Shown piece after piece: positions 14,586-19,251 of a DNA stretch of 46,295 nt. Under the pieces are notes generated by a model that was given only the letters and a program-made list of their open reading frames with translations, did not search any database and was not told the origin of the DNA. Every line of letters starts with the position of its first letter. Within the stretch, counting starts at the first letter, position 1. This stretch comes from Crocinitomicaceae bacterium (lineage in GTDB: Bacteria; Bacteroidota; Bacteroidia; Flavobacteriales_D; Crocinitomicaceae), in assembly GCA_022448165.1 (NCBI GenBank), contig JAKVAS010000007.1, positions 1 through 46,295 of the forward strand. Reading direction: 5' to 3'. The translations under genes and the position numbers were made by a program.

Positions 14586-14616
14586 AAAACGCTACTCTTT
14601 CGAGTAGCGTTTTTTT
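14586..14616 (+). terminator. Intrinsic terminator of sucAB
   Basis: A perfect 12-bp stem (AAAACGCTACTC / GAGTAGCGTTTT) with loop TTTC, ending in a long T-run. It separates sucB from the copper-type cassette. Confidence 0.93.
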
Positions 14617-14689: not shown

Positions 14690-15130
14690 GTGCAAATACT
14701 TCGAGAATATATAAAACGATCCATATTAGGACTATTATCCATTGTCTTGTTTTCGAACATGACTTTCGCCTTCTCGATTGATATCCATCTTTGCCAAGAC
14801 AAAGTAAAATCGGTTTCTTATTTTGGACAAAAGTCCTCATGTCAAGGAGACCTTTCCATTGGACAGCCTTCAAAATGTACTAAAGAAGACAACTTCCATT
14901 CAAAGTCTTGTTGTTCTAACCAGCAATTTTCTCAAGATACATCGCTTGAAGATAATTCACCGCTTCAATTTTCGCTTAAGAAACAAGCAACAGACATAAT
15001 TCAACTTAATCCATTCTCTCCCACAACTTCCAACGTACATCTAACGGAGGAAACACGTGGAGAAATACCATTTCCACCAAAACTAATTTGGAATCAGCAG
15101 CGAATTGCCTTCCAAGTTTTTGTTATTTGA
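14690..15130 (+). CDS. HYC_CC_PP family small exported protein
   Basis: 146 residues beginning at a GTG (14690); no in-frame ATG occurs before residue 24. A signal peptide-like stretch (SILGLLSIVLFSNMTFAFS) leads the mature protein. The layout matches the Bacteroidota HYC_CC_PP family: HLC (here L replaces Y) just after the signal, a second Cys in KSSCQGD, a third in SKC, a CC pair in KSCCSNQ, then PFPPKLIW near the C-terminus. The family is known from genome surveys beside heavy-metal genes but has no proven function. It is followed 66 nt later by the MbnP and MbnH genes and an HMA lipoprotein, which supports a role in copper handling. Odd points are the GTG start and a possibly near-leaderless mRNA. 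Confidence 0.72.
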   Translation: MQILREYIKRSILGLLSIVLFSNMTFAFSIDIHLCQDKVKSVSYFGQKSSCQGDLSIGQPSKCTKEDNFHSKSCCSNQQFSQDTSLEDNSPLQFSLKKQATDIIQLNPFSPTTSNVHLTEETRGEIPFPPKLIWNQQRIAFQVFVI

Positions 15131-15153
15131 TTAACGTTCTCTTTAGACGTTTA

Positions 15154-15167
15154 GCCGATACATCGGC
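15154..15167. promoter_or_regulatory. Dyad GCCGAT-AC-ATCGGC between the HYC_CC_PP and MbnP genes
   Basis: A perfect 6-bp inverted repeat with a 2-nt centre, 30 nt before the MbnP ATG, in a 66-nt gap. It is GC-rich against AT-rich surroundings. There is no T-run. An operator or an RNA hairpin that sets relative expression are both possible. Confidence 0.35.
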
Positions 15168-15196
15168 AATTATATTCCAACACATAATTTCAAAAC

Positions 15197-16165
15197 ATGA
15201 AAACATTTATAATTACAGCAATCACAGTATTAGGAGCATTCATCTCTTCTGCACAAATCAATACTCAACTTCGTATTTACCATAAATTGGGAGCACAAGA
15301 TTTCCAAATGAATACTACCACTCAAAATAACCTAGGACAGGATTACCACATCACTCGTTTGCAATACTACATGACCAAATTTTCCGTAGTTCACGATGGA
15401 GGTCAAGTAACTTTAGTGAATGACGATGTTGTTGCACTAATCAACGCGGAGGGAAATGATTTCTCAACGGTTGAATTAGGAAACTTGAACATTACGAATG
15501 TGGAGAGTGTAAAATTCCATATTGGTGTACATTCTCCAGTAAACAACGAAGATCCTACGCAATACCCAACCGATCATCCACTCTATCCACAATCGCCTTC
15601 TATGCACTGGGGATGGGCTTCAGGATATCGCTTTTTAGTGTATGAAGGAAAAGGAGGAAGTAATTTCTCACAAACATTCCAATTACATGGTTTGGGAAAC
15701 AACAATTATTTCGAAACAACAGTGAGTGCATCAGGTCAAGAAGTAGCAGGTAATTTAATTATTGCTTTAGATGCTGATTATACAAAAGGTGTAGAAGATA
15801 TCAATGTTTCTAACGGAGTGGTTGCGCATGGAATTAACACGGCTGATCTTGAAGCAATAGAGAACTTCCGCGATTACGTATTCTCATCAAGTAGTGCTGT
15901 AATTACCGCAAATACGGATGAATTAACACAGCTAAACTGGAGCGTTTATCCTAATCCGATAACTACTGAAAATGTACAGATCACGGTGGAGAACGTGAAT
16001 GCAATCGAACGTATTTCGATTACTAATGTTCTTGGAGAAGAAGTGCAATCAATTGTTCCTTCAGAACCGAACACTTCCGCGACTTTATCTTCAGCAGGTA
16101 TTTACTTTGTAAATCTCATCGGAGAATCAGGACTTTTGGAAACGAAGCGTATCGTTAAGCAATAG
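15197..16165 (+). CDS. mbnP: MbnP-family copper-binding protein with T9SS sorting domain
   Basis: 322 residues. Signal peptide at 1-19 (MKTFIITAITVLGAFISSA). The MbnP-type domain (~20-220) has the characteristic order: QNNLGQDYHITRLQYYMTKF, then a GVHSPVNN segment, then PSMHWGWASGYRFLVYEGKG. The only tryptophans in the domain are W138 and W140; the third Trp, W248, lies in the tail linker. In characterised MbnP proteins a Trp in this motif region is oxidised to kynurenine by MbnH to build the copper site. A T9SS type A sorting domain closes the protein (~248-322: NWSVYPNPITTENV ... GIYFVNLIGESGLLETKRIVKQ), so it should be exported across the outer membrane and anchored or released. The MbnH gene starts 2 nt after the stop. 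Confidence 0.85.
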   Translation: MKTFIITAITVLGAFISSAQINTQLRIYHKLGAQDFQMNTTTQNNLGQDYHITRLQYYMTKFSVVHDGGQVTLVNDDVVALINAEGNDFSTVELGNLNITNVESVKFHIGVHSPVNNEDPTQYPTDHPLYPQSPSMHWGWASGYRFLVYEGKGGSNFSQTFQLHGLGNNNYFETTVSASGQEVAGNLIIALDADYTKGVEDINVSNGVVAHGINTADLEAIENFRDYVFSSSSAVITANTDELTQLNWSVYPNPITTENVQITVENVNAIERISITNVLGEEVQSIVPSEPNTSATLSSAGIYFVNLIGESGLLETKRIVKQ

Positions 16166-16167
16166 TT

Positions 16168-17259
16168 ATGAGAGGTAACATATTATTTGTAGGATTCCTG
16201 ATTATAGGAGTTCTACTTATCGCTTGCAAAAAAGTTACGACGGGAAATTTTGTTCAATACGATGATACTCCTTATTCGTTGAACTATATCAATAACACGC
16301 TTCCTATTCCGAATTTACCTGCAGACAATCCCTTAACAAAGGCAAAGGTTGAATTGGGTAGAGCCTTATTTTATGAGAAGAGCATGTCTTCTGATGGTAC
16401 TGTAAGTTGTGCAAGTTGTCACAATCAAGCAACTGGATTTTCAGATCCCGATCAATTCTCTTTTGGAGTAAACGACGCGCAAGGAAATCGCCAAGCAATG
16501 GCAATTATCAATTTAGCATGGAACGACAATGAATTCTTTTGGGACGGACGTGCTCACCTATTAAGAGATCAATCTCTTGGACCAATCGAGAATCCGTTAG
16601 AAATGAACGAGACCCTAGAGAACGTAATTCAAAAACTGAATACGAATACCAAGATCAAACAACTGTTTATTCGTGCTTTTGGATCTGCCGAAATCACTTC
16701 GGAGAAAATGTCGTTAGCAATGGAGAACTTTATGATGTCTATTGTTTCTGATGATTCTAAGTTCGATCGATACTTAGCAGGAAAAGCGGTTCTAACTCCA
16801 AGTGAAGAACGCGGACGTGTACTTTATTTTGCAGAATACAATGAGTTTTTCCCTGAAGTATCCGGAGCAGATTGCGCGCATTGTCATGCAGGAAACAATT
16901 TTGAAAACGATCAATACATGAACAATGGACTTGATTTAACTTCCCAGTTCGTCGATTTTGGACGAGAAGATGCCACTGGAAATGTAAACGATCGAGCGAA
17001 ATTTAAAGTACCAACGTTAAGGAACATTGAAGTAACTGGACCTTATATGCATGATGGTAGGTTTGAAACCTTGGAAGAGGTGATTGATCACTACAATGAA
17101 GGAGTTAAGCACTCTACAACTGTGGACCCTGCATTACTTGGTACAACTTCAACAGGGTTAATGTTGGATGCTCAGGACAAGGAAGATCTTATCAATTTTT
17201 TAAAAACACTTACGGATTATACAATGCTTACCAATCCAGCATATTCAGATCCGAATTAA
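16168..17259 (+). CDS. mbnH: MbnH-like di-heme cytochrome c peroxidase family lipoprotein
   Basis: 363 residues. The lipobox is LIAC with C20, so a lipoprotein is expected. Two c-type heme motifs are present: C81-A-S-C84-H85 and C236-A-H-C239-H240. The pattern GRALFYEKSMSSDGTVSCASCHNQ, the FWDGR segment and GPYMHDGRFETLEEVIDHYNEG are standard for the di-heme CcP/MauG family. Known MbnH enzymes use a bis-Fe(IV) state to oxidise a Trp of MbnP to kynurenine. The neighbour immediately upstream is MbnP, which favours MbnH over a plain peroxidase; sequence motifs alone do not separate the two. M294 and H295 in PYMHDG are near the expected distal region of the second heme. The HMA gene follows after 13 nt. 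Confidence 0.85.
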   Translation: MRGNILFVGFLIIGVLLIACKKVTTGNFVQYDDTPYSLNYINNTLPIPNLPADNPLTKAKVELGRALFYEKSMSSDGTVSCASCHNQATGFSDPDQFSFGVNDAQGNRQAMAIINLAWNDNEFFWDGRAHLLRDQSLGPIENPLEMNETLENVIQKLNTNTKIKQLFIRAFGSAEITSEKMSLAMENFMMSIVSDDSKFDRYLAGKAVLTPSEERGRVLYFAEYNEFFPEVSGADCAHCHAGNNFENDQYMNNGLDLTSQFVDFGREDATGNVNDRAKFKVPTLRNIEVTGPYMHDGRFETLEEVIDHYNEGVKHSTTVDPALLGTTSTGLMLDAQDKEDLINFLKTLTDYTMLTNPAYSDPN

Positions 17260-17272
17260 TACAAATGCATCA

Positions 17273-17617
17273 ATGAAAAGTAGTATCGCTATTTTTTCGA
17301 TGATCGGTATGATCGCGTTAATTTCATGCGGCTCATCAAAACATCGAACAACAGAAACGTTTACCGTTTATGGAAATTGTGGAATGTGTGAATCAACAAT
17401 TGAAAATGCCTTAAGCTCCGATGATGGTGTAGTTTATGCTGATTGGATTGTTGACACAAAACTTCTTACGGTAAAGTACGACACAACCCTGATCTCCATC
17501 TCGCAGATTAAGCAAACAATCGCAGATGTGGGATATGACAGTGATTCGCATCGTGCCAAAACAGAAGTGTATGATAAACTTCATGGTTGTTGTCAATACG
17601 AACGACCCGTCGAATAA
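17273..17617 (+). CDS. Heavy-metal-associated (HMA) domain lipoprotein
   Basis: 114 residues. Lipobox LISC with C19. A single HMA fold follows, with metal-binding C36-G-M-C39 in VYGNCGMCESTIENAL and the later GYDSDSH loop. The C-terminus is LHGCCQYERPVE, an extra CC pair typical of a Bacteroidota HMA subgroup. It probably binds Cu(I) at the periplasmic side of a membrane and could pass metal to or from MbnP, exporters or oxidases; that is inference. It is the last gene of the cassette; a terminator starts 14 nt after the stop. Confidence 0.85.
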   Translation: MKSSIAIFSMIGMIALISCGSSKHRTTETFTVYGNCGMCESTIENALSSDDGVVYADWIVDTKLLTVKYDTTLISISQIKQTIADVGYDSDSHRAKTEVYDKLHGCCQYERPVE

Positions 17618-17630
17618 AATCATGTAATAC

Positions 17631-17660
17631 AAAAACGCCATTCGTATGAGTGGCGTTTTC
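17631..17660. terminator. Bidirectional terminator between the HMA gene and the convergent T9SS gene
   Basis: AAAACGCCATTC / GAGTGGCGTTTT with loop GTAT and one G-T pair. A-run and T-run flank it on the two sides, so it can serve both the copper cassette (+) and the minus-strand gene ending at 17713. Confidence 0.88.
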
Positions 17661-17712: not shown

Positions 17713-19251
17713 TCATTTCTTTACAAATCGCTTAACGATATGGGTAAATCCAAAATCTAATTCTATTAAATAAACACCCTTCGGAAGTTCTGAAACGTCA
17801 AGAGTTGTCTCTTCTGTTGTCAGAAGCTCCTTTCCGATTGAGTTAATCACCTTTGCCCGAACGAACTCTTTTGGCGCTTTTATCTCAAGTGTCTTGATCA
17901 CTGGATTCGGATAAAGCGTGATCAACGTTTCATCAATGATTTCCTCACCAAGACTTAATACCGGAGGAAGACAAGATTCGACTAATCCATCATAGAAATT
18001 CTGAACTTCATCTGCGGCCTGATACAATTCATTGACACTTTCTAAATGGTCTTCTCCTAACGCCGTAACGATTGCAAAATCAAACGTAACCGTATCATGT
18101 GATGAAAACTCACCAATTTCAAACCTCATTAATTGACTTCTTTGTGAATCAAACTGCAACGAGTCTAAATTTCCTGTATTTGTATATGGATTTCCCGTAA
18201 AAGCAAACGTAGGACCCAATGTACTTCCGTCTACTCCACTTCCTTCCAATACATGCATAAACTCAGGAGGATATGAAGGCATTCCTTCCGGATAATTTGC
18301 GGAAGATCTGAACAAGCGCGTACTCGTTATGTCTTTGTTCAACGAAATGACACCTGTCGCCGGAGGAGTATCACCATATCCTATTTGTCCTTGTACAATA
18401 TCCGATGCCGTACCGTTGTAGTTAAACATCATGTTTTGATCGATCGAAGTACCTGCAAAATCATTACCTACATTACCAATCAAACCATCAAAGAAAATTC
18501 CTGCATTAAAACTGGTATAATTCTCTAAAGATCGATTGACTGCTTTGGTTTGAATAAAAGTTGTGTTTGCTACTGCCTCGTCATAATACTGATACACCAT
18601 CGTATGCATTTCTATTCCTAGACCATCCATGTTATTCACTCCACACCATGGACCGTGAGACACGTCATTGGTAATTATATAAACGGTTTCATCTCCTAAA
18701 ACACAGGGATAATCTCCTTCATAAGGCGTATATATTTGATCACCATTGACATCCACAAAAGGAGCAAGATAGAAGCTAGCGTTAAAACTTACATCTCCAT
18801 GCGCTGGCCACAGGAGTATATTTTGAGGCGCTTGATATCCGGCTGTCCCGACATTAGCGATGTGATGATCTATTTCTGCTCGAGTAACAGGGAAAATAGC
18901 TGGAACCATTTCTCCAACAGGCTCTCCTGTCAAACTCAACGGCCCTTTAAACACATATTCATCTGCCGTATACCTTGGTGTTGAAATATGTGGTTGCCCA
19001 AATTCATCTCTTCCTCCGAACCACATCGAAAGTGATCCGATATCGTTTAATCCGCTATTCCCCCCGAGAGAATAGTTAAGGGTTCCAATGGTTTGATCTA
19101 AAAATTGATTATCAAATTCAGCAAATAATATTCCTGCATCCGATAGCGTTGCACTAACATTATTCCCGTCTAAGGTTAGCGTAGAAGGAGCTTGTGAAAT
19201 TGCAGTTCCGCTCAATAGTGCGAAAATAAATAGTGAGAAGTTCTTTTTCAT
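17713..19251 (-). CDS. Secreted protein of unknown function with T9SS type A sorting domain
   Basis: 512 residues. Signal peptide MKKNFSLFIFALLSGTAISQA. The long mature part is beta-rich, with an Asp-rich calcium-site-like stretch (DVNGDQIYTPYEGDYP) common in large Bacteroidota surface proteins. No enzyme motif was recognised. The C-terminal ~75 residues are a T9SS type A sorting domain: LYPNPVIKTLEIK, then LPKGVYLIELDFGFTHIVKRFVKK. It should be delivered to the cell surface or medium. It is convergent with the copper-type cassette, not part of it, and sits alone with its own candidate promoter. Confidence 0.75.
   Translation of the reverse strand: MKKNFSLFIFALLSGTAISQAPSTLTLDGNNVSATLSDAGILFAEFDNQFLDQTIGTLNYSLGGNSGLNDIGSLSMWFGGRDEFGQPHISTPRYTADEYVFKGPLSLTGEPVGEMVPAIFPVTRAEIDHHIANVGTAGYQAPQNILLWPAHGDVSFNASFYLAPFVDVNGDQIYTPYEGDYPCVLGDETVYIITNDVSHGPWCGVNNMDGLGIEMHTMVYQYYDEAVANTTFIQTKAVNRSLENYTSFNAGIFFDGLIGNVGNDFAGTSIDQNMMFNYNGTASDIVQGQIGYGDTPPATGVISLNKDITSTRLFRSSANYPEGMPSYPPEFMHVLEGSGVDGSTLGPTFAFTGNPYTNTGNLDSLQFDSQRSQLMRFEIGEFSSHDTVTFDFAIVTALGEDHLESVNELYQAADEVQNFYDGLVESCLPPVLSLGEEIIDETLITLYPNPVIKTLEIKAPKEFVRAKVINSIGKELLTTEETTLDVSELPKGVYLIELDFGFTHIVKRFVKK

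Follow-up and report, generated by a model that had tools for sequence, protein, structure and literature searches.

The closest described counterpart of the locus reported here is the MbnP/MbnH pair of Methylosinus trichosporium, in which the di-haem enzyme MbnH reportedly turns the first Trp of a WxW motif in MbnP into kynurenine, with copper bound close to this kynurenine and to a Met and a His. The structure 7l6g is this MbnP, and a di-heme enzyme of known structure, 6e1c, we take to be the corresponding MbnH. MbnP/MbnH pairs far beyond the methanobactin producers have been on record since 2013 (PMC3621798). The CorA/CorB and MopE/SACCP systems of methanotrophs also place a surface copper protein with kynurenine beside a di-haem peroxidase-like gene; CorA, which binds copper(I), is co-transcribed with that gene (PMC3912023) and, though of another family (PMC3621798), is the nearest working analogue of the MbnP described below. 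MauG, the maturase of tryptophan tryptophylquinone, depends on the Trp between its haems both to stabilise bis-Fe(IV) and to make the cofactor, and BthA of Burkholderia, with Ser at that position, nonetheless forms bis-Fe(IV) (PMC6405878).

We analysed a stretch of 46,295 nucleotides (the window; contig JAKVAS010000007.1 of assembly GCA_022448165.1) from a Crocinitomicaceae bacterium of the Bacteroidota, in which four consecutive open reading frames (ORFs) on the plus strand at 14690-17617 encode an HYC_CC_PP protein, MbnP, a lipoprotein with two CXXCH motifs and an HMA lipoprotein. We think it probable that they form a copper-handling cassette around an MbnP exported by the type IX secretion system (T9SS) and its own di-haem maturase. 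The window shares with Methylosinus the gene pair, the MbnP fold, the M-x-W-x-W motif with its downstream His, and a di-haem enzyme whose Tyr and inter-haem Trp align. It differs in that its MbnP is T9SS-tailed and lacks Cys, whereas the 7l6g entry is named as a four-Cys motif protein, in that its enzyme lies on another branch, and in that HYC_CC_PP and HMA genes adjoin and no MbnB-grade gene was found in an assembly that is 86.5% complete.

The MbnP/MbnH-type pair and its export tail

The second gene of the cassette (15197..16165, plus strand, 322 residues) encodes a protein in which a signal peptide and an MbnP domain are followed by a type A T9SS sorting domain. An earlier note, made from the letters alone, had named it as an MbnP candidate; it passed the corresponding profile, PF20243, at 87.7 bits (cut-off 27), and its fold also agrees with the MbnP crystal structure. 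The AlphaFold model, built with an 80-row alignment as input, reached a mean predicted local distance difference test score (pLDDT) of 93.5, and in a Foldseek search of solved structures ranks one to six were the six chains of 7l6g, each with probability 1.00. When hhalign was used to align the 80-row family with 7l6g, which reads MAWNW and WMVH, MHWGW fell opposite MAWNW and H164 opposite the WMVH His (E 2.4e-5). The window motif is M136-H137-W138-G139-W140, and all 80 rows agree in M136, W138, W140, H164, H211, N116 and Q20, while 78 of them have His at position 137. By analogy with Methylosinus, M136 and H164 are the likeliest copper-site candidates; residue 117 is not a candidate, because it is Asn in the window.

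The third gene (16168..17259, plus strand, 363 residues) encodes a di-haem lipoprotein that scored 188.3 bits on CCP_MauG (PF03150, cut-off 25.6). Its best NCBIfam model was TIGR04039 (MbnH), ahead of the MauG model at 181 bits, and its best chain in the PDB was 6e1c at 183 bits, followed by the di-heme peroxidase 1iqc at 149.5 bits. Two CXXCH haem sites, a Tyr at the place of the Met of cytochrome c peroxidases (CcPs) and the inter-haem Trp make it an MbnH in the wide sense. The aligned positions also hold the distal Pro and Glu, so that inter-haem Trp, distal Pro, distal Glu and axial Tyr are common to the window enzyme and MauG. The MauG reference, a gene of the Paracoccus kondratievae mau cluster, bears a cytochrome c peroxidase annotation and was treated as MauG on account of the genes around it; its residues fit the Trp93-Pro107-Glu113 spacing of MauG numbering. 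MauG differs in its substrate and in sitting on a long branch outside the MbnH-type rows.

An ordinary CcP was rejected on the Tyr at the ligand position and on the trees. Met is the axial residue in three of the four CcP references that have one; the fourth, a CcP-annotated Sphingomonas protein, has His and grouped with the MbnH references in a first tree, and in a second tree of 79 rows three CcP references split off with support of 100/99. Of the outcomes that the earlier note had named as refuting its proposal, neither a clustering of the enzyme with ordinary CcPs nor a failure of the MbnP candidate on the MbnP profile came about. The MbnH-type identity proposed there stands as far as residues and adjacency to MbnP go, and has to be qualified as to descent, with the enzyme on a branch apart from the characterised MbnH.

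In a scan of a genome collection 386 relatives of the window MbnP were found, of which the best 80 were taken; several of these loci are close relatives, and counts on them are thus not independent. An MbnH-type gene lies directly 3' of MbnP, or within 2.5 kb on the other strand, in 76 of the 77 named loci with room for it, L060 being the sole exception, and we reject a chance neighbourhood on this ground. Among 150 genomes of the order, some match to full-length window MbnP occurred in 144, a figure inflated because T9SS tails and other MbnP types also match. Strong matches to the window type of enzyme, termed beta below (at least 430 bits; the next at 388), were found in 25 of the 150, and all 25 genes adjoin an MbnP of the window type when the tables are compared by eye. 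Among the closest named relatives of the window MbnP, the labels Crocinitomicaceae, Fluviicola and Flavobacteriales predominate. The MbnP domain gave no tblastn match in plasmid records at E 0.01, and the viral structure library yielded no usable match.

Several results weigh against equating this pair with the characterised MbnP and MbnH. The window MbnP failed the equivalog model TIGR04052 (MbnP_like_WxW) with 36 of 140 bits, where a Trichormus MbnP reference scored 320.7. A sequence search with it did not find 7l6g, which was reached by sequence via the Trichormus MbnP, and the fold is therefore the stronger evidence for its identity. Even there, template modelling (TM) scores to 7l6g were 0.41-0.49, perhaps partly because the T9SS tail is an extra domain, and the hhalign probability of 75.7 was only moderate. 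Position 117 corresponds to the His of an 'NH' in 7l6g; 42 of the 80 rows keep this His, and 34, the window included, have Asn. The assignment of kynurenine to the first Trp of WxW is carried over from the Methylosinus system. The di-haem enzyme scored 245 bits on TIGR04039, under the cut-off of 362.85 (Trichormus MbnH reference, 559), and it falls into the MbnH-type branch without 6e1c, which is joined to the other at a node with support of only 95/79.

The sorting domain of MbnP spans residues 250-322 (15944..16162, plus strand), with 29.1 bits on PF18962 (cut-off 27) and 39.9 bits on TIGR04183 (cut-off 23), and the T9SS tails 8glk and 8gl6 of the PDB were among the structure matches listed. 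GldM, the one T9SS gene searched for, is present on contig C248 of the same genome, so that the type A domain and GldM together mark MbnP as a predicted T9SS substrate. As MbnP ends in such a tail, it should be exported. The T9SS transports folded cargo. The tail went unmentioned in the earlier note. In four of the 25 genomes with a strong beta match (L036, L038-L040) the MbnP tail lacks the usual PNP. No paper on MbnP/MbnH in Bacteroidota was among the matches listed by a search that covered few open papers and never joined MbnP with T9SS, which is no proof of absence; within the same few papers we found no description of the export tail or of the split of the enzyme into two forms set out below.

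The source genome, an assembly of 306 contigs, holds three MbnPs (C274, C281 and C233), each followed by an MbnH-type gene, and a cytochrome c assembly gene, partial at a contig end. A methanobactin locus was rejected, as no MbnB-grade protein was found in this incomplete assembly or near the cassette; its sole PF05114 protein, on contig C1, scores as HvfB-like and reached 56 of 325 bits on the MbnB model. Within the same limit of completeness, the claim of an MbnP/MbnH-type pair without methanobactin is supported, the two proteins being encoded side by side and having the residues that kynurenine formation would call for.

Two other loci of this genome are recorded here in their own right. 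On C1 (L164 5393-7196) there is an HvfB/HvfC-like pair of the MNIO type associated with ribosomally synthesised and post-translationally modified peptides (RiPPs), scoring 277 of 360 bits on NF003818 and 112 of 142 on NF050145; the 96-residue ORF 5' of it, with a signal-like start, one Cys and no Pfam or NCBIfam match, is a possible RiPP precursor. On C233 (L041 4035-7031) a sigma-factor-like ORF (by eye), a small protein without a Pfam match, an MbnP with MYWSW and a di-haem enzyme follow one another.

Copper context and the limits of the cassette

The neighbours of the 80 loci were taken as 270 ORFs, up to two per side, of at least 120 residues from stop to stop, in batches of 137, 121 and 12, for each of which the 25 most frequent families were listed. 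Multicopper oxidases made up eight of the first 137 and were not among the families listed for the other two batches; eight is well above a rate of about one per genome, a baseline that does not represent random neighbourhoods and is compared here with loci some of which are close relatives. The three oxidases checked singly all have T9SS tails, and one of them had CueO as its best NCBIfam model at 374 bits, below the cut-off of 525; the one PF07732 match in the window genome is also T9SS-tailed. HMA domains occurred in 6/137 and 6/121 neighbours, outer membrane efflux proteins in 4/137, 3/121 and 1/12, E1-E2 ATPases in 3/121, and ACR_tran in 10 of the 12 longest.

The first gene of the cassette (14690..15130, plus strand, GTG start, 146 residues, with a signal-peptide-like beginning) belongs to the HYC_CC_PP family: it passed NF047658 with 42.5 bits (cut-off 28) and shows the HxC, CC and PP motifs. 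In an alignment of 38 sequences H33, C35, C51, C74 and C75 are invariant; one His and four Cys would fit metal binding, and are no proof of it. Most members also end, besides the PP motif, in a short hydrophobic tail (for example F-L-I, F-R-I or F-L-C). The AlphaFold model was poor (pLDDT 68.5), the 5' regions of the gene in the window and three relatives had no common motif by eye, and a literature search on HYC_CC_PP found no paper.

Elsewhere the family stands before other metal genes. In eight loci a minus-strand HYC_CC_PP gene lies directly before a minus-strand gene of more than 3.3 kb; in L054, L058 and L091, checked singly, this gene encodes an RND pump (ACR_tran), and in L054 and L091 the next one encodes an outer membrane efflux protein. 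The CusA/CzcA model (cut-off 701.45) was passed by the RND genes of L054, L091 and L103 with 748.9, 763.9 and 754.4 bits. A second HYC_CC_PP gene of the window genome (C32, L159 4331-8107) is followed by a TonB receptor, a small HMA gene and a cupredoxin-like ORF (by eye; without a Pfam match), and this row is likely a copper locus.

With CusA/CzcA pumps and multicopper oxidases among the neighbours of relatives, copper handling is therefore the likely business of the cassette, and we lean towards detoxification over acquisition as its role. The opposite assignment, in which the same chemistry serves to acquire copper under scarcity, as proposed for CorA, is a serious though somewhat less than even prospect: the surface protein CorA is repressible by copper (PMC3912023), MopE is secreted when copper is limiting (PMC3423442), and on C32 HYC_CC_PP and a small HMA gene flank a TonB receptor, whereas in relatives HYC_CC_PP stands 5' of CusA/CzcA-type pump genes and multicopper oxidases lie close by.

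The fourth gene (17273..17617, plus strand, 114 residues) encodes a small HMA-domain protein with a CGMC motif (PF00403, 36.9 bits, cut-off 24.8), presumably a lipoprotein from the lipobox read off its sequence. A small HMA gene directly after MbnH was found in only 3 of 73 loci (L047, L051 and L114) and is therefore not a general partner; in L100 a gene for a copper-type P-type ATPase takes its place. HYC_CC_PP, on the other hand, lies within 1.5 kb 5' of MbnP in 33 of the 69 loci with that much sequence (24 on the same strand, nine on the opposite one). It stands beside MbnP in 14 of 30 genomes of the order, with some HYC_CC_PP match in 22 of the 30 (best six matches at most per genome); the 20 loci L139-L158, where other MbnP types prevail, showed no HYC_CC_PP gene. 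The suggestion that the pair is framed by two metal-type proteins thus holds for HYC_CC_PP, which clearly recurs beside MbnP, and much less for the HMA gene, which is rare there.

As to boundaries, the gap between HYC_CC_PP and MbnP is 66 bp, that between MbnP and MbnH 2 bp and that between MbnH and HMA 13 bp: the last three genes are a tight run, with HYC_CC_PP set off by one short gap. A reading in which the unit is only MbnP-MbnH-HMA, and HYC_CC_PP a separate small gene that happens to lie upstream, draws on this gap, which contains a weak hairpin at 15154-15167; the gene is moreover on the opposite strand in nine of the 33 loci where it is a neighbour, and 36 of 69 loci lack it within 1.5 kb. 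Its presence beside MbnP in 33 of 69 loci and in 14 of 30 order genomes (again among at most six best matches each) nevertheless makes a separate gene a rather unlikely reading.

The four genes do lie between two terminator-like hairpins at the coordinates first given for them. The upstream one (14586..14613, plus strand), after the sucB-like gene, has a 12-pair stem, a 4-base loop and a T-rich tail, and the downstream one (17632..17659, plus strand) also has a 12-pair stem. A scan of the window found six terminator-like sites against 3.7 (standard deviation 2.0) in shuffles, a number not above chance, and the two framing hairpins stand out by stem length only. Beyond them, sucA and sucB (recognised by eye) on the 5' side and the gene for a T9SS-tailed protein on the opposite strand at 17713-19251 do not seem to belong to the cassette.

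Two branches of MbnH-type enzymes

The MbnH-type rows of the 79-row tree, which omitted four distant references and the majority of the alpha and beta rows, fall into two main branches. One contains 6e1c and the MbnHs of Trichormus and Diaphorobacter, with a Bacteroidota group of 37 rows (alpha; 100/99) as their sister (99/94). The other (98/91) comprises the beta group of 19 rows (100/95), to which the window enzyme belongs, and the enzymes beside short MbnPs. The tree accordingly places the window enzyme on a separate Bacteroidota branch and not with the closest kin of the characterised MbnH. The first tree excluded 13 of 138 MbnH-like ORFs (shorter than 300 residues), and L124_ups5020 was assigned to neither group.

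Tree and gene order had served to sort the rows into alpha and beta before the inter-haem residue was looked at. All 65 beta rows, the window included, have Trp at this position; none of the 60 alpha rows does, 49 carrying Arg and 11 Phe. A second, partly overlapping set gave Trp in 0 of 37 alpha and 42 of 42 other rows, the alpha residues being Arg 19, Phe 9, Met 3, Tyr 2, Leu 2, Ala 1 and Lys 1; L146 5801, which scores slightly better on the alpha profile, has Trp, groups with the C233 enzyme and was counted as non-alpha. Read from the tree alone, the inter-haem Trp would have been lost once. In four alpha rows (L147, L148, L150 and L151) the axial Tyr is also replaced, by Phe, and each of these lies beside a beta-type gene with both Trp and Tyr. 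L147 and L148 have two short MbnPs in tandem, only one of which carries WxW, then the alpha gene without Trp and Tyr and then the beta-type gene with both.

Like BthA, alpha enzymes are di-haem proteins without the inter-haem Trp, a likeness that the window enzyme does not share; they differ from BthA, which has Ser there, in their Arg, Phe, Met, Tyr, Leu, Ala or Lys and in standing beside MbnP. By this analogy alpha would be a further BthA-like case, linked to MbnP. Two MbnH-type genes in plasmid records (L127 5866-7020 and L133 2857-4008) seem to be misnamed: they carry the label 'methanobactin export MATE transporter MbnM'.

Among 71 named loci with enough downstream sequence, MbnP is followed by at least two MbnH-type genes in 44 and by one in 20, and in the tandem loci the tree identifies the first gene as alpha and the second as beta. 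Within the stretches seen, the window, L036 and L038-L040 are beta-only, and L033-L035, L037, L139-L145 and L152 are alpha-only; the MbnPs of all of them have WxW. We tentatively raise the possibility that kynurenine copper proteins of Bacteroidota are matured by two enzymes, beta carrying out the oxidation and alpha acting as an electron relay, a peroxide gate or a second-step enzyme. Alpha-only loci would then work independently of Trp, as BthA does, and the window would be a beta-only case with T9SS export.

The tandem order in those 44 loci would fit a beta enzyme that is insufficient by itself and requires an alpha partner, and the window genome does keep an orphan alpha gene (C55, L043 2252-3235, with Tyr at the inter-haem position) without an adjoining MbnP. 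We regard this need for a partner as unlikely: beta-only and alpha-only loci both occur, so that neither form is always required next door, and the tree joins the C55 gene to the alpha gene of another MbnP locus (L139, 93/80), from a genome of the same genus.

Proposed function and what it would mean

That the di-haem protein is instead a peroxide-consuming peroxidase or general oxidase, beside an MbnP that is a plain metal-binding surface protein with a structural, unmodified Trp motif, we consider improbable: TIGR04039 was missed and members of this superfamily differ in job (PMC6405878), but the enzyme shares its Tyr with MauG and MbnH at a place where Met prevails among the CcP references, an MbnH-type gene is close to MbnP in 76/77 loci, and WxW is invariant in 80/80 rows.

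In the copper-handling cassette that we favour, MbnP would reach the periplasm through its signal peptide, and the beta-type lipoprotein MbnH, once loaded with two c-haems, would oxidise W138 to kynurenine via a peroxide-derived high-valent iron. The folded MbnP may then bind a single copper ion close to Kyn138, most likely through M136 and H164, and the finished protein would be exported by the T9SS to the cell surface or the medium. The HYC_CC_PP protein and the HMA lipoprotein may serve as metal-binding helpers, HYC_CC_PP being part of a wider copper-locus set in which it stands 5' of a TonB receptor or a CusA-type pump.

What goes beyond routine annotation here is the export tail together with the split of the maturase into partners that keep the inter-haem Trp and partners that lack it. 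If our reading is right, the kynurenine copper site would be no speciality of methanotrophs and would belong to a common exported protein of Bacteroidota without methanobactin, and, with Trp-keeping and Trp-lacking enzymes both provided by nature, often next to one kind of substrate, it could be tested directly whether long-range oxidation requires this Trp.

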